From Methanobrevibacter sp. YE315 (lineage in GTDB: Archaea > Methanobacteriota > Methanobacteria > Methanobacteriales > Methanobacteriaceae): a stretch of 64,000 nucleotides of DNA. Below are positions 11,073 to 55,146 of this stretch, piece by piece; within the stretch, counting starts at the first letter, position 1; each line of letters begins with the position of its first letter. The DNA is taken from assembly GCF_001548675.1 (NCBI RefSeq), contig NZ_CP010834.1, forward strand, positions 624,001-688,000, read 5' to 3'. The position numbers and the translations under genes were made by a program. The notes beneath the pieces were generated by a model that ran no database searches, was not told the origin of the DNA, and worked only from the letters and a program-made list of their open reading frames with translations.

Positions 11073-14000
11073 ATGTTGGAAAATATTCAAAAGATAGTTA
11101 TTAGCAAACCTTTCCTAATTTCAATAATTATCATTTCAATCATGTTTACTTCTTTAGGAGTAAATATGGGAGAAGCTTATGCTTTTGATTTGAATGATGA
11201 TGTTGAAACTGGTTTGGAATTAAATATTGGAGATAAATTGGAAAATTCTCACGAAATCGAAACGTTACAGGAAAATACATATTCATTGAATGGAGGTACT
11301 TTTAGAGATATTCAGGATGTGGTCAACAGTGCAAGCAATGGAGATACAATAGAATTAAGTGGAAAGTATGTCGCTAGTGATGAAAATGACAGTGTAATAA
11401 TCAATAAGAAGTTAATATTCACATCTGCCGATAAAGCGACATTGGATGCGAAAAATTTGACAAACATTTTTAAGATTTATGCAGGAGGTGCACAATCAGA
11501 ATTTATTAATCTAAAATTTATAAACGGATATACGGACGATAAAGGAGGTGCTATTAGGATAAATGCAAAAAACATCACGCTAAACAATTGCGTTTTTGAA
11601 AATAACCATGCTGAAGGAGGATCTGGTGCAGTATACACTTCCTACCTTCCCCAAGTCGCTGAAGGCTTGACGGTAAAAAACTGCAATTTCACAAAAAATA
11701 CTGCAGGCACTTCAGCAGGTGCTCTGGGAGCGTTTGGACAGCATTTCAAAATCATAAACTGTGTATTTGATTCAAACAGCGTTTACAATGACCTGGCATG
11801 TTATGGTGGAGCAATACAGATAGGTTTGGATACAAATGTTTCTTATGGTATTGTCGTTAATTCAACATTCATCAATAATAAGGCTCAATCATCAAAAAGC
11901 ATTTCACATGGAGGGGCAGGATGCGTAAGAAATGGATCATCATACTACAATTGTATATTCATCAATAACAGTGCAGATTTTGGAGGTGCATTGACATATC
12001 ATGCATCAGGAAATCTGAATAACTGTACTTTAATCAATAACACAGCAAGGGACTATGGTGGTGCGGTTGCAATCTGGTTGAATCATGATTATATGGATTT
12101 AAACATTACAAACTCCAGATTCATTGGAAATAAAGCCCCATTGGGAGGTGCGGTCAAACTCGATGGATTCAATATAAAAATTGTAAATTCAACTTTTGAG
12201 GATAATTTTGCATCCAAGTATGGTGGTGCCGTAAATATTGAAGCGTATGACGTTAAAATATTAAATTCAACTTTCAGGAAAAATATCGCAAATGTCGATG
12301 GTGGTGCAGTCTACATTAAAGGAAATGACACAACCGTCAAAAATTCCTTATTTGTATCTAATGAAGCGATACCAGACGTTAAAAAGTTAAATGATGGATT
12401 GGGTGGTGCAATCTACATAAACAGTACAAAGGCGTTAGCCCAAAATAATGTTTTTAAACTGAATACTGCAAGAAATGGCAGTGCCCTTTATTTTGATAAG
12501 CATGGCGTTGAATTCAAACTGATCAACAATACATTGTATCAGAATCAGGCATGGGTTTATGCATTGCCGATTCAGGCTCAAGACATTTATTATGGGGATA
12601 GTGAAAGGATAAAATCAGTAATCTACGGTGGAAACAACATTGCGGATTATGACAATCTGGCAGTTTCAAATGCAATTTACAACGCTGCAGATCATGATAA
12701 AATAGAAATTGATGGTGAACATCCTGTATCCGGAGCTACCAACAGCGGTAAACTTTACCAGGATGATCGTGAATACAATATAGAAATTATAATGACTGTT
12801 AAACATGAAGATGGAACTGTGGTATATAATAAAGCTTTAAACTCCAGCTATTTGGGTCAGGTTTCACTAAATCTGGACAATTTAAAGCCGGGAAAATATT
12901 ATGTCACTGCAAAGCACAATGAAGACAATTACTATAAGGGAATAACCAATGCCACAACATTCAATGTCATTCCAAAAACAGACCTCAGAATCATAAAACT
13001 GTGCAATAAGGACAGAATAACCTATGGTGATGTGGTCATATGGACACTTGAGGTGACTAATGATGGGCCGAACAATGCAACTGGTGTTAAAGTTTACGAT
13101 GTGTTGCCTGAAGGATTGGTTTGGCAAAAAGATAATACAAACGGAAAATACAATCCTGAGACTGGTGTTTTAGACATAGGTTCATTGAATGCGGGAGAAA
13201 TGGTTGCATTTAAAATAACAACTCTTGTCAATAAAACCGGGAAAATCAACAATAAGGTAAATGTTTCTGGAAACGAATTCGATACTAACATTGAAAACAA
13301 CTATGACCAATATCAAATCAACGTCCCTAATGCGATCGATTTGGAAGTAGTTAAAAAAGCAAATAAATCAAATCCGAATTTCGGCGATCTGGTTACTTGG
13401 AGCATTGTTGTTTTGAATAATGGTCCGGATATTGCCCACGATGTCGAAGTTAGAGACATGCTTGCAAAATCCTTGATTTTTGTCAATGCTACTGGAAACT
13501 ATGATGTCAAAACCGGAACCTGGTTAATCAAGTCATTGGGAGTTGGAAAATCCGTCAAGATGACTCTTGTTTGCAGGGTAAACAAAACAGGGGTGATAAA
13601 GAATAGCGCCAATGTTTCCGCAAATGAGTACGATTGGAATCTTTCTAACAATTTTGATGAAAAAGCTATTAATGTTGCTCCTGCCAGTGATTTGAGAGTC
13701 ACTAAGTTGGTTAATGATTCCAATCCGAATTTCGGCGATCTGGTTACTTGGAGTGTTGTTGTCTTGAATAATGGTCCTGATGTTGCCCACAATATTAAAG
13801 TGGCAGATATCCTTCCTGAATCATTGGTTTTTGTCAATGCCAGTGGATATTATAATGTTAAAACAAACAGCTGGCTAATCTACTCTTTAGGCGTTGGAAA
13901 ATCAGCTAAATTAACTCTTCTTTGCAGAGTCAATAAGACAGGAGAGATAAGGAATGCCGTTAATGTTTCCGCTAATGAGTATGATTGGGATTTGTCAAAT

Positions 14001-17000
14001 AACTTTGATGATGAAGTTATTGATGTTGCACCAGCATCTGATTTAGAAGTAGTCAAATCAATTAATAAGTCTAATCCGAATTTCGGCGATTTGGTTACTT
14101 GGGGTGTTGTTGTCTTGAATAATGGTCCAGATGTCGCACATGATATCCACGTGCAAGATATGCTTCCGGAATCACTAATATTTGTCAATGCTACTGGACA
14201 TTATGATGTTAAAACCAGTAGCTGGTTAATCAATTCATTAGGTGTCGGCAAATCAGTTAGGTTGACTCTTGTCTGTAGGATCAATAGGACTGGTGAGATA
14301 AGGAATGCCGTTAATGTTTCCGCTAATGAGTATGATTGGGATTTGTCAAATAACTTTGATGACGAGGTTATTGATGTTGCTCCGGCATCTGATTTGAGAG
14401 TCACTAAGCTGGTTAATGATTCCAATCCGAATTTCGGTGATTTGGTTACTTGGAGTGTTGTTGTCTTGAATAATGGTCCGGATATTGCACATGATATCCA
14501 AGTAATTGACATGCTTCCAAAATCATTAATATTCGTCAATGCCAGCGGGCATTATAATGTTAAAAGCAGTAGTTGGATAATTAAATCTTTAGGTGTCGGC
14601 AAATCAGTTAGGTTGACTCTTGTCTGTAGGGTCAATAAAACTGGTGAAATAACAAACATGGTAAATGCAACAGCCAAAGAATTTGATCCTGACATGACAA
14701 ATAACCATGATAAAAATCAGATTAAGGTTCCAAGAACCGTTGATTTGAATGTCATTAAAAAAGCTAATGTCACAAATCCGAATTACCTTGATTTGGTAAA
14801 TTGGACAATTGAAGTTTCAAATTTCGGTCCCGATGCAGCTCATGATATCAAAGTCATCGATGAGCTTCCTGATTCATTAACATTTGTTGATGCAAGTTCA
14901 AATTATGATAAAGAAACTGGAATTTGGAATATCAAATCATTAGGAGTGAATGAAACAATTAAATTGTATATTGTTTGTAGAGTAAATGCAACCGGTGAAA
15001 TCATAAACGGTGTCAATGTCACAAGCCGTGAACGCGATTATAATGAATCTGATAATTTTGATGAGAAAACTATTGATGTAGCTCCAGCCTGCGATTTGGC
15101 GATAGTCAAAATGGTCAACGATTCCAATCCGAACTACCATGATTTGGTTACCTGGACTATTGAAGTTTCAAATTCAGGTCCCGACATAGCTCATGATATT
15201 GAAGTTGTTGAATTGCTTCCTGAATCCTTGATATGGATTAGTGATGATTCACTCGGAAAATATAATCCGAATAATGGGATTTGGAATATTCATTCATTAA
15301 ACAGAGGTGAATCCGTAAGGCTAAACCTTATTTCATTTGTCAATTGCACAGGCAATATCACAAACATCGTTTCAGTAACCTCAAAGGAATATGATTACAA
15401 TCCTGAAAATAACAATGATTCAAACATCATCCGAGTCAACAAATCAGGAGATCTGTCTATTGTTAAAAACGTAAATGCCAGTGGAGCTAACTATGATGAT
15501 TTAATCAGATGGATATTGACTGTTTCAAATAAAGGTCCGGATAAGGTAACTGACATTATTGTTGAGGATGTATTGCCTGAAGGGTTGGTATTGGTCGATT
15601 ATGATGCATCAAAAGGATTTTATGATGAGGGTTTATGGAACCTATGCTGTCTTGAAAAAGGTGAAATCCAAACCTTGGAGATTATCTGCAGAGTAAATAT
15701 CACCGGAAATATCACAAACATTGCTAAAATTTCGGGCAAGGAATATGATAGCAATTTGACAAACAATGTGGACAATGAAACTGTGGAAATACCATTTGCA
15801 GCCGATATTCAAGTCATTAAACAAGTAGATAACAAATCTCCATTCTTTGGCGATGTTGTCGTTTGGATGATAAAAGTTGAAAATAAGGGTCCAGATACAG
15901 CAACAAACATCCAAATTTTCGATGAATTGCCTGAAAGCTTGATTTTTATGGATTATCAATCCACCAATGGAGTTTACAGGAATGGAATTTGGAATATTGA
16001 TCATTTAAATACAGGAAACTCAGAATATCTAAATATCAGCTGCCGTGTCAATGAATTAGGTGTTATTATAAATGATGCAACTGCAACAGCCAATGAATAT
16101 GATACCGACATGTCAAACAATCATGATGACGCATTCATTGACGCATTTCCGGTTTCAGATTTGTCCATTCAAAAAATCGCAAATGTGTCAGATGCAAATT
16201 ATGGTGACTTTGTAAGATGGACATTAATAGTTTCAAATGAAGGATTTAATGATGCAACAGGGGTTTTCGTTGAAGATATATTGCCGAATTCTTTAGAATA
16301 TGTGGAAGCATATGGTGATGGGGAATATGGCGACGGAGTCTGGTATATTGGAGATGTTGAAGTTGGCGAGTCTAAAAAATTGAATATTGTATCAAAAATC
16401 ATCAAAACAGGAAGCATTGTCAATTCAGCTATTGTTTACGGCAATCAAAAAGACCCTGACTTGTCCAATAACGAAGCTGAAGAAAGCATTTATATTCCTC
16501 CTGCAGCCGATTTATCAATTTCAAAGACTGTCTCTAAATCAGAATATAATGTCGGTGATTTGATTGAATTTTCAATCAGACTTATTAACAACGGACCTGA
16601 CCGCGCTTTGAATGTTAAAGTTAAAGAGATATTTGACGATTTCCTCCATTTAAAATCATTCAAGGCAAGCAAAGGATCATTTGATAAGATGAGTAGCGAG
16701 TGGAATATTGATGAGTTGGAATCAGGCAGCGAAGAAAACTTATTGATAGTATTTGAAGCTATAAAAGAAGGTGAATTTGAAAACATCGCTTCTGTAATAA
16801 GCGATACCTTTGACTTTGACAGGAACAACAACGAAGATGGTGCTTTTGTCAAAATAGTTGAAAACATTACCAATGGAACTGATAAAACACTATCAATAGA
16901 GGATGATTTATTGAAATCAAGAAATATTGATTCGCCACTTTCAAATCTTCAAAAACACCCAACTTCTAATCCAATATTGTTATTGGTTGGTTCATTATTG

Positions 17001-50252: not shown

Positions 50253-50597
50253 ATGAGGCGGAAGAAAGATAATAAAAGGGTTTTAATCCCTAGAAATCAA
50301 ATGAATGCTCATCAAAATCAGAGGAATGCAAGGAAAAAGAAAAAGAAAGGCAGTGGTAAACTTTTGTTCCTTATGATTCTTGCTTTGGTTGCATTCGTAA
50401 TTGGTGCAGGAATTGGAATTTCCTTTACTTTGGATGATTCTTCTGAGGGAGCTCATTGGGAGAATGTCACAGAAGAAATGACTAATTTGTCAAATAATAC
50501 AGATTCCATAGATTATGATGTGGAATTGGATCGCGTTGATTATAACGATAATGAAACTATAGCAAAATTAAATCTTACAACTGAACCGTCATATTAG
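50253..50597 (+). CDS. small single-pass membrane protein
   Basis: A 114-residue protein with a very basic, Asn/Gln-rich cytoplasmic tail (about 1-35, with RKKKKKGSG), one membrane helix (37-57) and an acidic exterior tail rich in Asn, Asp and Thr. I do not know its function. It lies 25 bases after the palm-domain gene and abuts argJ, so it belongs to this transcript. The topology allows interaction with RNA or phospholipid on the inside. Confidence 0.6.
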   Translation: MRRKKDNKRVLIPRNQMNAHQNQRNARKKKKKGSGKLLFLMILALVAFVIGAGIGISFTLDDSSEGAHWENVTEEMTNLSNNTDSIDYDVELDRVDYNDNETIAKLNLTTEPSY

Positions 50598-50605
50598 TGA
50601 TTTTT

Positions 50606-51829
50606 ATGGATTTTATTAGAGATTTGGATGGAGGATTTTCAGTAATTGAAAATCTTAAGGTATCAGGAGCACGTGAAGGCAAATATGGTGTTAGTATAAT
50701 TTTATCCCCAAACAGCACAGCATCTGCCGTGTTTACATCAAACAAAGTCGTTGCAGCTCCTGTTAAATACACAAAAAACGTACTTAAAAAAGGAATTATT
50801 TCTGCTGTTTTTGTAAATAGTGGTAATGCCAATTGTTTTACAGGTCAACAAGGTATCAAAGATTGTGAAACTTTAGTTGAGCTATTATCAAAAGATTTGG
50901 GATTGCCTTCAGATGAAATTGCTATTTCTTCAACAGGTGTTATAGGTCGTGAAATGCCTATTGATATCATTTCCAAAGTGGCTTATGAGTCAATTTCAAA
51001 ATTGGGAAATAAGCCTGAAAATTCCCTTGCCGCTGCAAAGGCAATTATGACAACAGATACATTTCCTAAGGAATGTGCTGTTGAAGTGACCTTAACCACT
51101 GGAGATAAAGTCAAAATTGCAGGCATTACAAAAGGAAGTGGAATGATTGCTCCAAATATGGGCACAATGCTTTCGTTTATTGTAACTGATGCAGTTATTC
51201 CTGCAGATGAAATTAATAATGCATTAAAAAAAGCTGCTGATGTCAGTTTCAACATGATAGTTGTGGATGGTGATGAAAGCACTAATGATACCTGTTTGAT
51301 GATGGCAAATGGCGCATCTGGAATTAATGTTGTTAACGATGGAAAATTGGATTCAAATTTCCAGGATGCCTTAAATTATTTGTGCATTGATTTGGCTAAA
51401 AAAATGGCTCGTGATGGTGAAGGGGCCACTAAATTTATCGAAGCAAATGTGGTTGGTGCAAAAGATTTTGAAGACGCTAAATTGGCTGCAAAATCCATTA
51501 TTTCTTCCAGTCTTTTTAAATCTGCTGTATTCGGTGGGGATCCTAATTGGGGAAGAATTGTCTCAGCAATTGGATACTCAGGATGTGATTTAGATCCGGA
51601 TATTGTAACAATAGCTATTGCTGATGATTTGGATGAAGTGGATTTGGTTAGAAAAGGGGAAATTTTAGCATTTGAAGATACTCCTTTCCTTGAAAGAGCT
51701 GAAAAAATAATGCAGTCTAAAAACGTCATTGTTAACATTGACCTTGATTTAGGGGATGGCCAAGCAACTGCATGGGGATGCGATTTAACTTATGATTATG
51801 TTAAAATTAATGCAGAATATACCACTTAA
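50606..51829 (+). CDS. argJ: glutamate N-acetyltransferase (ornithine acetyltransferase)
   Basis: About 407 residues. ArgJ moves the acetyl group from N-acetylornithine to glutamate in arginine synthesis. It is made as a proenzyme and self-cleaves: AITKGSGMIAPNMGTMLSF (in part) contains the cleavage site before Thr in GTML. GDESTNDT and GDPNWGRI are also typical. ATG 50606 with AGTGAT is preferred to GTG 50597. argB begins at 63952, so the arginine genes are close but not adjacent. Confidence 0.95.
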   Translation: MDFIRDLDGGFSVIENLKVSGAREGKYGVSIILSPNSTASAVFTSNKVVAAPVKYTKNVLKKGIISAVFVNSGNANCFTGQQGIKDCETLVELLSKDLGLPSDEIAISSTGVIGREMPIDIISKVAYESISKLGNKPENSLAAAKAIMTTDTFPKECAVEVTLTTGDKVKIAGITKGSGMIAPNMGTMLSFIVTDAVIPADEINNALKKAADVSFNMIVVDGDESTNDTCLMMANGASGINVVNDGKLDSNFQDALNYLCIDLAKKMARDGEGATKFIEANVVGAKDFEDAKLAAKSIISSSLFKSAVFGGDPNWGRIVSAIGYSGCDLDPDIVTIAIADDLDEVDLVRKGEILAFEDTPFLERAEKIMQSKNVIVNIDLDLGDGQATAWGCDLTYDYVKINAEYTT

Positions 51830-52138: not shown

Positions 52139-52729
52139 ATGCATGGTCATAGAGCTCATGGATTTTCTAGTGCACTGTTTTTAGATTCCGATGAAATTTT
52201 AGGAGAGTTGAATCTAAAAGGTGATGAAACTTTTATGGATGCGGGATGTGGTGACGGCCATATTGCAATAAAAGTAGTTGAAGAATATCTTCCTGACGGT
52301 ACTGTTTATGCTGTGGATGTTTATGATGCATCAATTGAAGATATGGAGACATATAAAAATGAAAACAACATTGAAAATTTAATTAACATTGAAGCCGACA
52401 TTACAAAGGGAATTCCTGGTGTAGATGATGAATCTATTGATGTTGTTTTAATGGTTAATGTATTCCACGGATTTAAAGCATCAAGAACTATGGATGAAGC
52501 CATTGAAGAATTTTCAAGGATTATTAAAAAAGACGGAAAAATAGCAATAATGGACTATAAAGCATGGGATGTTCCAAAAGGACCTCCAACTGCATTTAGA
52601 AGTTCTCCTGAAGAACTGGAAGAAATTTTCAATAAGCATAATCTAAAAATGACATATTTAAACGAAGAGATTGGTGAAGATATCCCTCAAGGCAAATCTC
52701 ACTTTTTCATCGTATTTCAAAAAGAATAG
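52139..52729 (+). CDS. class I SAM-dependent methyltransferase (copy 1)
   Basis: The 196-residue protein has motif I MDAGCGDGHIAIKV (about 35-48) and the acidic post-I residue VDVYDAS, then DVVLMVNVFHGF (motif IV-like). The short N-terminus is His-rich (MHGHRAHGFS). The substrate is unknown; similar proteins are named ubiquinone/menaquinone-type or UbiE-like. GGTGATT precedes the ATG. It is a paralogue of the next gene. Confidence 0.8.
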   Translation: MHGHRAHGFSSALFLDSDEILGELNLKGDETFMDAGCGDGHIAIKVVEEYLPDGTVYAVDVYDASIEDMETYKNENNIENLINIEADITKGIPGVDDESIDVVLMVNVFHGFKASRTMDEAIEEFSRIIKKDGKIAIMDYKAWDVPKGPPTAFRSSPEELEEIFNKHNLKMTYLNEEIGEDIPQGKSHFFIVFQKE

Positions 52730-52831: not shown

Positions 52832-53419
52832 ATGGAACATAAACATCATGGAAAATCAAGTTCAGGGTATTTAGATGGTGATGAAATTTTAAAAGAATTT
52901 GATTTTAATGGAAATGAGACTTTTATGGATGCAGGTTGTGGAGATGGATATATTGCTAAAAATGCAATTGATAATTATCTTCCCGACGGCACTGTCTATG
53001 CAGTGGATGCCTATGATCAATCCATAAAAGATTTAGAAAATTATAAGAAGGAAAATAATGTTGATAATTTAATTAATATCGAAGCGGACATTGCTAAGGG
53101 GATTCCAGGTGTTTATGACTCTTCAATCGATGCTGTTTTAATGCTTAATGTTTTCCATGGGTTTAAAGCATCTGGGGAAATGGATAAAGTAATCGATGAG
53201 TTGGCTAGAATAATAAATGATGATGGTAAAATAGCAATTATGGATTTTAAACCATTAGATATGCAAAGAGGACCTCCAATCGAAATTAGAAGCTCACCAC
53301 AAGAGTTGGAAGAAATATTTAATAACCATAATCTTAAAAAAATATATTTGAATGAAGATATTGGTGAGGATATTCCAGAAGGCAAATCTCACTATTTGAT
53401 AATGTTTAAAAAGGAGTAA
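52832..53419 (+). CDS. class I SAM-dependent methyltransferase (copy 2)
   Basis: A 195-residue paralogue of the preceding protein, sharing MDAGCGDGYIA, VDAYDQS and LNVFHGFKASGEMD with the same spacing, and the end IGEDIPEGKSHYLIMFKKE. The two probably arose by tandem duplication and then diverged in the first 20 residues (MEHKHHGKSSSG). It is 7 bases before tarI, so it may be co-transcribed with the CDP-ribitol genes. GGGGGATT precedes the ATG. Confidence 0.8.
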   Translation: MEHKHHGKSSSGYLDGDEILKEFDFNGNETFMDAGCGDGYIAKNAIDNYLPDGTVYAVDAYDQSIKDLENYKKENNVDNLINIEADIAKGIPGVYDSSIDAVLMLNVFHGFKASGEMDKVIDELARIINDDGKIAIMDFKPLDMQRGPPIEIRSSPQELEEIFNNHNLKKIYLNEDIGEDIPEGKSHYLIMFKKE

Positions 53420-53426
53420 GGTTTCA

Positions 53427-54137
53427 ATGATTTTTGCAGCAATCTTGGCAGGTGGAATAGGATCTAGGATGGGTGGCACTGACACTCCAAAACAATTTTT
53501 GGATTTGGGAAATAAGCCGGTCATAATTCATACAATTGAAAAGTTCGTTATTAATAAAAAAATAGATAAGATTATTGTTTTAACTCCAAAAAACTTCATT
53601 GACCATACTAATCATTTGATTAATGAGTATATTGGATTTGATGATGAGATTATTGTTATTGAAGGTGGAAAAACAAGAAACGACACCATAATGAACAGTA
53701 TCAGTTACATTAATGATGAATTTGGCATTGATGAAGACTCAATAATCATTACTCATGACTCTGTGCGTCCATTTGTAACCCATAGAATCATTGAAGACAA
53801 TATTGAAGCTGCAAAAAAATATGGGGCTTGCGATACTGTAATTCCAGCTACAGATACGATTGTTGAAAGCATCAACGGCGCGACCATTGAAAGCATTCCC
53901 GTAAGGGATTATTATTACCAAGGTCAAACACCACAGAGCTTCAATATAAAGAAACTTTATAACTTGATTACTAGTTTAACGGAAGAAGAATCCAATATAC
54001 TTACAGATGCATGTAAGATATTCACACTTAAGGACGAAGATGTACATCTAGTTGAGGGTGAAGTGACAAATATTAAAATTACATACCCTTATGACTTAAA
54101 ATTAGCAAATACTATACTTGAGGATATTCATGATTAA
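53427..54137 (+). CDS. tarI: ribitol-5-phosphate cytidylyltransferase, TarI-type
   Basis: The 236-residue protein joins CTP and a sugar-alcohol phosphate. Key motifs are AAILAGGIGSRMG (3-15), TPKQFLDLGNKPVIIHTIEKF (in part), ITHDSVRPF and IPVRDYYYQGQTPQSFNIK (in part). The family also includes IspD, but archaea use the mevalonate route, and the gene overlaps a tarJ homologue by 8 bases, as in Gram-positive teichoic-acid loci. So CDP-ribitol is the likely product. GGAGTAAGG precedes the ATG. Confidence 0.85.
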   Translation: MIFAAILAGGIGSRMGGTDTPKQFLDLGNKPVIIHTIEKFVINKKIDKIIVLTPKNFIDHTNHLINEYIGFDDEIIVIEGGKTRNDTIMNSISYINDEFGIDEDSIIITHDSVRPFVTHRIIEDNIEAAKKYGACDTVIPATDTIVESINGATIESIPVRDYYYQGQTPQSFNIKKLYNLITSLTEEESNILTDACKIFTLKDEDVHLVEGEVTNIKITYPYDLKLANTILEDIHD

Positions 54138-55146
54138 CATTGTTTACAGATTAAAATCTCCAAAGTTCTTTGAAGAGGCAATAGATGAAATTGAATTGGA
54201 CGGCATTGTAGTAAGGCCGCTTTATCTTTCAATCTGTCAAGCTGACCAAAGGTACTATCAGGGGTCAAGGCCGGTTGAAGTCTTGGAAAAAAAATTGCCT
54301 ATGGCATTAATCCATGAAGGAGTTGGAGAGGTGGTATTTGACTGCAATAATAACTTTAAACCTGGTGATAAGGTTGTAATGATACCGAATACCCCTTCAG
54401 GTGAAGATGTCTGCAGATTAAATTATTCTTATAATTCAAAATTCAGGGGAAGTGGTTTTGACGGATTCACTTCCGATTTAATTAAACTTGATGAAGATAG
54501 GGTCATAAGGATTCCGGATGATTTCAATCTTCATGTTTCATCATTCATTGAACTGATTTCAGTAGCCTATCAGGGAATCACAAAATTTAATGATATAGCC
54601 ATTACTCCAAAAGACAAATTGGGAGTTTGGGGTGATGGGAATTTAGGTTTCATAACCTCACTTCTTTTAAAGGAAATGTTTCCGGATTCAAAGGTATATG
54701 TATTTGGAAAACATCAGGATAATCTAAGCCTATTCACTTTTGCAGATAAGGTTTATCAGATTCATAATGTTCCTGACGACCTTGTAATTGACCATGCTTT
54801 TGAATGTGTTGGTTCCAGTGCATCACAAGCAGCTATTGAACAGATAATCGATTTGATTAACCCTCAAGGAACAATTAATTTATTTGGAGTAAGCGAATAT
54901 CCGATTCCAGTAAATACTCGTATGATTCTAGAAAAGGGATTGACCGTTCAGGGAAATAGCCGTTCCGAAAGAGAAGATTTTGTTGGAGTCATTGAAACTC
55001 TCAAACAAAACCCAAAATTATTTGAATATTTGGGAAAACTGGTTACCAACGTTTGCGAAATAAACTCTTTAGATGATTTAAAAGAGGCATTTGACAAAGA
55101 CTACATTTATCGCTTTGGCAAAACAATTTTGAAATGGAATAAATAA
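54130..55146 (+). CDS. tarJ: ribulose-5-phosphate reductase, TarJ-type
   Basis: About 338 residues of the zinc/MDR alcohol dehydrogenase superfamily. It is very like staphylococcal TarJ: RPLYLSICQADQRYYQGSRP (about 29-48), LPMALIHEGVGEVVFD, VVMIPNTP, WGDGNLGFITSLLL and HAFECVG. It reduces ribulose 5-phosphate to ribitol 5-phosphate, the TarI substrate. ATG 54130 with GAGGAT is preferred to TTG 54118. The pair probably came from Firmicutes; the ribitol acceptor is not visible here. Confidence 0.88.
   Translation: MINIVYRLKSPKFFEEAIDEIELDGIVVRPLYLSICQADQRYYQGSRPVEVLEKKLPMALIHEGVGEVVFDCNNNFKPGDKVVMIPNTPSGEDVCRLNYSYNSKFRGSGFDGFTSDLIKLDEDRVIRIPDDFNLHVSSFIELISVAYQGITKFNDIAITPKDKLGVWGDGNLGFITSLLLKEMFPDSKVYVFGKHQDNLSLFTFADKVYQIHNVPDDLVIDHAFECVGSSASQAAIEQIIDLINPQGTINLFGVSEYPIPVNTRMILEKGLTVQGNSRSEREDFVGVIETLKQNPKLFEYLGKLVTNVCEINSLDDLKEAFDKDYIYRFGKTILKWNK

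Follow-up and report, generated by a model that had tools for sequence, protein, structure and literature searches.

The window analysed here, a 64,000-nucleotide stretch of the Methanobrevibacter sp. YE315 genome (one contig of 2,273,296 bases), carries two overlapping genes that the initial annotation had named tarI and tarJ, a pair known from Gram-positive bacteria. Their occurrence in an archaeon of a pseudomurein family raises the question of whether the names are right, from where the genes came and on what their product, CDP-ribitol, would be spent.

The tarI-tarJ pair and its surroundings

Both frames are intact and overlap by 8 bases (Table 1). With 371.5 bits, TarI is far above the cut-off (166) of the curated model NF001183, and it stays below cut-off for the two IspD equivalogs (149.6 bits for TIGR00453, cut-off 181.3; 177.1 for NF001186, cut-off 253). 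Its top four matches in the PDB are 4jis and 6xhp, both named ribitol-5-phosphate cytidylyltransferase, and 3f1c and 2vsh, which are older entries labelled methylerythritol-phosphate cytidylyltransferases; 4jis is matched with 297.8 bits versus at most 95.5 bits for true IspD entries. TarJ is best matched in the PDB by the S. aureus ribulose-5-phosphate reductase 6xh9 (371.2 bits, residues 1-336), the second-best match being an alcohol dehydrogenase with 44.6 bits. Residues C37, H63, E64 and E143 of TarJ (numbering of the first row), which we take to be the zinc ligands of the MDR family, are invariant across 12 aligned TarJ.

That TarI is in fact IspD or another alditol-phosphate cytidylyltransferase, and TarJ a general alcohol dehydrogenase, could be argued from the membership of TarI in the IspD Pfam family and from database records, which often label such genes methylerythritol-phosphate cytidylyltransferase. 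This is hardly credible when NF001183 is exceeded by far while the IspD equivalogs are not reached, when TarJ matches S. aureus TarJ with ca. eight times the bits of any other PDB dehydrogenase, and when tarI and tarJ are strictly paired: of 135 loci (a count that includes the window's own genome and duplicates), 133 have them adjacent with order and strand unchanged, the two exceptions being cut by contig ends. IspF, the partner of IspD in the MEP pathway, is absent from the window's genome, so an IspD role for TarI is not needed, and the MEP reading was rejected. As judged from sequence matches far beyond chance, the pair is real and correctly named.

The likeness to TarI-TarJ of S. aureus, Bacillus and Listeria extends to full-length enzymes, the tarI-tarJ order, a short overlap and the conserved residues, and identity to the pairs of Listeria and S. 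epidermidis is 50-59%. The overlap, initially noted as a Gram-positive trait, indeed has counterparts on an S. epidermidis plasmid (8 bases) and in a Listeria record (4 bases); among 20 other archaeal loci, 8 show it and 12 have gaps of 0-169 bases. A TTG at 54118 given in the list of open reading frames is less likely to be the tarJ start because homologues start at ATG (MIN...). When compared to four relatives, dN is 0.08-0.17 and dS 1.1-1.6 for tarI, and dN 0.09-0.24 and dS 1.9 to saturated for tarJ; both genes are under purifying selection. Their GC contents are 0.332 and 0.354, that of the window being 0.336.

The pair is directly preceded by a class I methyltransferase gene that is probably on one transcript with tarI, and further upstream by argJ. 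In 7 of 20 archaeal loci argJ and the methyltransferase are retained beside tarIJ, with the methyltransferase homologue directly upstream of tarI; as argJ, the kept left neighbour, shows, tarIJ sits in an old housekeeping position and not in a polysaccharide island. Unlike Gram-positive tarIJ, the pair of this genome is unlinked to tarL, tarF and tagGH. When stretches of 6-11.5 kb were considered, a PF04464 or LicD gene was found near tarIJ in 6 of 21 archaeal loci versus 54 of 79 bacterial loci, the bacterial sample favouring near relatives.

Table 1. Location of the features of the window and of the other loci discussed
Feature	Position	Strand	Remarks
argJ	window 50597..51829	+	PF01960, 459.4 bits; conserved left neighbour of tarIJ
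Tandem methyltransferase copy	window 52139..52729	+	68% identical to the second copy (52832..53419)
Class I methyltransferase	window 52832..53419	+	PF13847, 55.9 bits; ends 7 bases before tarI
tarI	window 53427..54137	+	ATG 53427, stop 54137, 236 aa; D-ribitol-5-phosphate cytidylyltransferase (NF001183, PDB 4jis)
tarJ	window 54130..55146	+	ATG 54130, stop 55146, 338 aa; ribulose-5-phosphate reductase (ribitol-5-phosphate dehydrogenase; PDB 6xh9)
P0004	own genome 78506-79597		bare PF04464 protein, 363 aa
GT2-PF04464 fusion and TagG-TagH pair	own genome 2069692-2074386		adjoining genes
GpsA locus	own genome 1117636-1119385 (L018:7637-9386)		bacterial-type GpsA
LicD locus	own genome 1525818-1532865 (L020:7819-14866)		two LicD proteins
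TarL-like homologues	L170:2292-4079 and 12835-14658		near tarIJ
TarL-like homologue	L171:8424-10220		near tarIJ
TarL-like homologue	L172:10766-12511		near tarIJ
TarL-like homologue	L173:7956-9725		near tarIJ
TarL-like homologue	L174:900-2693		near tarIJ

Distribution and origin

TarJ was detected in 83 of 138 Methanobacteriaceae genomes, corresponding to 65 of the 67 genomes of the window's genus and 18 of the 71 of other genera, and in none of 13 other genomes of the phylum outside the family; the two genus genomes devoid of TarJ are 89% and 77% complete. TarI passed its cut-off in 84 of the 138. The pair is thus old and settled in the family. A recent transfer into this strain was ruled out by the spread in the genus, the kept neighbours and the ordinary GC.

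Bacterial counterparts were sampled by scanning named genomes of bacteria and archaea, as the best 80 of at least 574 confirmed relatives (5 archaeal and 75 bacterial), a sample that favours near relatives since the first row of the scan was a Methanobinarius TarJ. Bacterial titles in these best 80 of at least 574 are mostly from Clostridia and other Firmicutes, many of them from gut or rumen, with a few named just "bacterium". The TarJ and TarI trees were built on 24 archaeal and 77 bacterial rows, from which L097 and L151 (no complete TarI), the duplicate contigs L078, L079, L080 and L136 (equal to L063, L071, L070 and L061, respectively) and 27 of 29 further genus loci (L024-L052, of which L024 and L030 were retained) had been dropped; L024 and L053 are one genome. 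Also dropped, as a suspected mix-up, was L074 (NZ_CP151763.1), a tarIJ-bearing plasmid labelled Yoonia, a marine alphaproteobacterium; its TarJ is 74% identical to that of the S. epidermidis plasmid, which suggests mislabelling or contamination. For the joined TarI+TarJ tree, L114, L093, L088, L053 and L076 were removed as well and the bacteria were thinned at 74% identity, leaving 46 rows.

In the TarJ tree, a single clade (SH-aLRT 96) takes in 23 of the 24 archaeal rows and is nested in a group with 63 bacterial rows, mainly named Clostridia (98). The joined tree, which provides the TarI/TarJ phylogeny that the initial annotation had called for, places 22 of 23 archaeal rows in a monophyletic group (98/98) that is sister to 17 clostridial rows (99/95), the two together being supported at 100/100 and the sampled Bacilli falling outside. 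With TarI only, the archaea-plus-Clostridia group is recovered (99) and the archaeal branching is not resolved; TarI groups there with clostridial TarI. An IspD affinity, or unrelated dehydrogenases as relatives of its partner, either of which had been put forward as grounds for discarding the annotation, is contradicted by the model and PDB scores given above. The second TarI-like protein of the same genome was tried as an outgroup to the TarI tree and rejected, as its branch of 6.9 cannot root anything.

The simplest reading, which the trees support, would be an old transfer of tarIJ from a clostridial lineage to ancestors of these methanogens, the bacteria-to-archaea direction resting on the nesting and on how widely the family is spread among Firmicutes, with a root that is not formally fixed. 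Gut Firmicutes had been suspected as donors from the start: the clostridial sister group, many of whose sampled members are from gut or rumen, agrees with this, while the nearly genus-wide presence of the pair speaks against a recent or local event.

A single archaeal pair departs from this pattern. In genus g13, one of six genomes (G126; L072/L177) has tarIJ and is also the sole one with PF04464, which is adjacent to the pair. The G126 pair groups with rows of Bacilli and lactobacilli, and a single archaeal group occurs in 0% of 200 bootstrap trees; one archaeal clade including G126 is not rejected by the AU test (p 0.072). G126 probably gained its pair independently, possibly by a separate transfer of the whole tarIJ-PF04464 unit. 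In a phage collection, TarI was found in 20 records and TarJ in 3.

Candidate users of CDP-ribitol

A search for TarK/TarL-type homologues, proposed together with the gene names, was productive: the window's genome has eight matches to PF04464, the family that includes TarB, TarF, TarL and TagF, and TarL-like proteins occur in relatives. Among the eight, P0004 is a bare PF04464 protein encoded ca. 600 kb from tarIJ. Its best PDB match is TarL (8va1, 148.5 bits) versus 130.5 bits for TagF and 62.7 bits for Cps3D (8qoy), a TagF-like capsule polymerase of the same phosphotransferase family; in NCBIfam it scores 174, 162 and 130 bits to TarL, TarF and TarB, respectively, all below the equivalog cut-offs (1000 for TarL). 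It has H102 and H231, which are invariant in the aligned set, and the DYSS motif of that set. The gene lies downstream of dTDP-rhamnose genes and ahead of GT2 genes and of a WcaJ-type primer (479.5 bits, cut-off 410.75).

Among 78 good genomes, PF04464 is present in all 49 that are TarJ-positive, and a P0004 orthologue in 47 of these 49 versus 6 of 29 TarJ-negative ones, in a comparison that is not corrected for relatedness and that uses a 45% identity line drawn after the table had been seen; at E 1e-40 and with no identity line, 98 of 138 genomes have a match. The six exceptions (G007, G008, G017, G018, G021 and G029) have P0004 while lacking both TarJ and any TarI match. CDP-ribitol therefore cannot be what P0004 requires in every genome, which weakens the assignment of its donor; in these genomes it may have another one. 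A genuine TagD above cut-off occurs in only 1 of the 138 family genomes, which leaves no obvious case for CDP-glycerol as general donor, and it was rejected as such, the TagD-like domain of the window's genome being fused and below cut-off. TagD-like matches in many relatives lie in open frames of ca. 435-465 aa.

The organization found in relatives brings these genes together. In M. cuticularis (L175) and G016 (L176), tarI and tarJ are followed by tagG, tagH, a P0004-like gene, two GT2 genes and wcaJ, with P0004-like, glycosyltransferase and WcaJ proteins that share 43-65% identity with their counterparts in the window's genome (51-65% for GT2-GT2-WcaJ). Two genes past wcaJ in L176 also match the window's genome (51% and 90%), which indicates that the cassettes are syntenic and that only tarIJ and tagGH sit elsewhere in the latter, where the phosphotransferase-glycosyltransferase-WcaJ run is retained. 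In G042, from the window's genus group, a P0004-GT2-GT2-GT2-WcaJ run comes after a TagG-TagH pair. Other arrangements associate tarIJ with TagGH, P0004-like and TarL-size proteins (G012, L170, and G135, L173), with TarL-size and P0004-like proteins (G103 and G105, the latter with tarI only at a contig end), or with TagGH and one TarL-size protein (G014). Against TarL, the six TarL-size proteins of these five genomes reach 311-386 bits, versus 114-135 against TarB/TarF; all stay below the TarL equivalog cut-off of 1000. At E < 1e-100, such proteins are confined to 5 of 138 genomes, all TarJ-positive.

These clusters resemble Gram-positive tar/tag clusters by their PF04464 transferases, their TagGH-type transporter and, in five relatives, a TarL-like gene near tarIJ; they differ from them by a WcaJ-type primer. 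The TagH-like protein of the window's genome has TagH as best PDB match (187.1 bits), while in NCBIfam a galactan Wzt (202.4) equals TagH (202.1), both below cut-off, so that Wzt/RfbE exporters are as close as TagH.

A putative ribitol-phosphate surface polymer

Because relatives place tarIJ next to genes for teichoic-acid-type polymers and their export, a ribitol-phosphate surface polymer is probable. TarJ would reduce D-ribulose 5-phosphate to D-ribitol 5-phosphate and TarI would convert the latter, with CTP, to CDP-ribitol, two predictions that follow from strong family membership. CDP-ribitol would then be consumed by PF04464 phosphotransferases, foremost P0004, which, going by the conservation of the cassette, may put ribitol phosphate onto a glycan that the WcaJ-type primer and the adjoining GT2 enzymes would assemble on a polyprenyl carrier; the product would reach the cell surface via the TagGH-type ABC transporter. 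The pair itself, according to tree and distribution, was presumably gained from Clostridia long ago and then kept. Taken as a whole, from CDP-ribitol synthesis through P0004 to export and old clostridial origin, this scheme has a good probability of being right, on sequence grounds.

What is proposed is a teichoic-like ribitol-phosphate polymer. The LCP (LytR-CpsA-Psr) family is the bacterial wall ligase, and no LCP match was obtained in the window's genome, another difference from Gram-positive tar/tag clusters, so no claim of canonical wall teichoic acid is made. LCP-family proteins above cut-off do occur in 8 of the 138 Methanobacteriaceae genomes (L187, L188 and 6 others). A bolder version, in which the surface of gut pseudomurein methanogens bears a true polymer of the poly(ribitol phosphate) type, made with tarIJ of clostridial origin, TarL/P0004-type transferases and TagGH-type export, and attached without LCP and perhaps without a TagO-TagA linkage unit, is conceivable and is put forward tentatively, with somewhat more doubt than confidence.

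CDP-ribitol might instead be used by long glycosyltransferase-PF04464 fusions or by LicD to build a capsule-type repeat or to add a single decoration, as in bacterial capsules or with mammalian fukutin/FKRP, and not for a P0004 teichoic-type chain. The seven further PF04464 matches of the window's genome fit such a role: they lie in open frames of 750-920 aa, the four scanned are multi-domain proteins combining GT2 or GT1 with PF04464 (the GT1 of L019:6303 being just below the Pfam cut-off), and a GT2-PF04464 fusion adjoins a TagG-TagH pair. The two LicD proteins of this genome and the six genomes with P0004 and no TarIJ point the same way. Where tarIJ is clustered, however, its neighbours are P0004-like, TarL-size and TagGH proteins and not LicD, which is found near tarIJ in just 1 of 21 archaeal loci, and the LicD locus of the window's genome has its own TarI-like cytidylyltransferase and TagD-like fusion; we therefore regard this use as unlikely.

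Even less probable is a cytoplasmic or lipid role, in which tarIJ would provide CDP-ribitol or ribitol for a solute or a lipid head group and no surface polymer would be made. In its favour, tarIJ lies amid housekeeping genes and apart from those for polysaccharides, both in the window's genome and in the majority of the relatives sampled from its genus, but PF04464 enzymes accompany TarJ in every good TarJ-positive genome, other genera cluster tarIJ with export and glycosyltransferase genes, and tarIJ and PF04464 coincide in the sole g13 genome having either.

Teichoic-type polymers in bacteria are phage receptors and antigens. If the proposed ribitol-phosphate polymer exists, a Gram-positive-type polymer would be a core surface feature of the main human and animal gut methanogens, acquired from bacteria of the kind among which methanogens live, with consequences for the viruses of methanogens, for immune recognition and for vaccines meant to reduce methane. 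A poly(ribitol phosphate)-type polymer would also explain the phosphate-rich walls of M. ruminantium.

Part of this background is not new. Teichoic-acid gene homologues in M. ruminantium M1 (listed in Table S1) and walls holding much phosphate, the latter credited to Kandler and König 1978, were already stated for this species in 2010 in passages of Leahy et al. (PMC2812497), which name no ribitol, TarI or TarJ. Extracts of later papers list one CDP-glycerol glycerophosphotransferase under teichoic-acid biosynthesis in a lauric-acid study (PMC5816558) and tagF and tagD in the 2020 reannotation of M1 (PMC7772410); the terms teichoic, ribitol, TarI, TarJ and IspD do not occur in the main text of a 2026 comparison of Methanobacteriota (PMC13135261). 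Among the papers listed, with subscription literature thinly covered, no title or abstract opening mentions archaeal CDP-ribitol synthesis. In a GC-MS analysis of sugar residues in Methanobrevibacter extract, the relevant passage gives ribitol as the internal standard (PMC12281867), so that native ribitol would be hidden in such an assay. The enzyme pair is a known one in a new occurrence and, together with its archaeal partners, is a new variant of the teichoic-type pathway.

Two further loci of the window's genome carry related genes. At the LicD locus, the two LicD proteins occur with a fusion of a TagD-like cytidylyltransferase domain, scoring below the TagD cut-off, and a GFO_IDH oxidoreductase. 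Also present, beside an extended SDR, is a second TarI-like protein that reaches 220 bits (cut-off 166), and a second CDP-alditol pathway is possible. Finally, a bacterial-type GpsA, sn-glycerol-3-phosphate dehydrogenase (275 bits, cut-off 257), is unexpected in an archaeon because archaeal lipids use glycerol 1-phosphate; its neighbours are a nucleotidyltransferase and a pair of PF04464 proteins, of which the one scanned is a GT1 fusion, and this locus may feed a glycerol-phosphate polymer.
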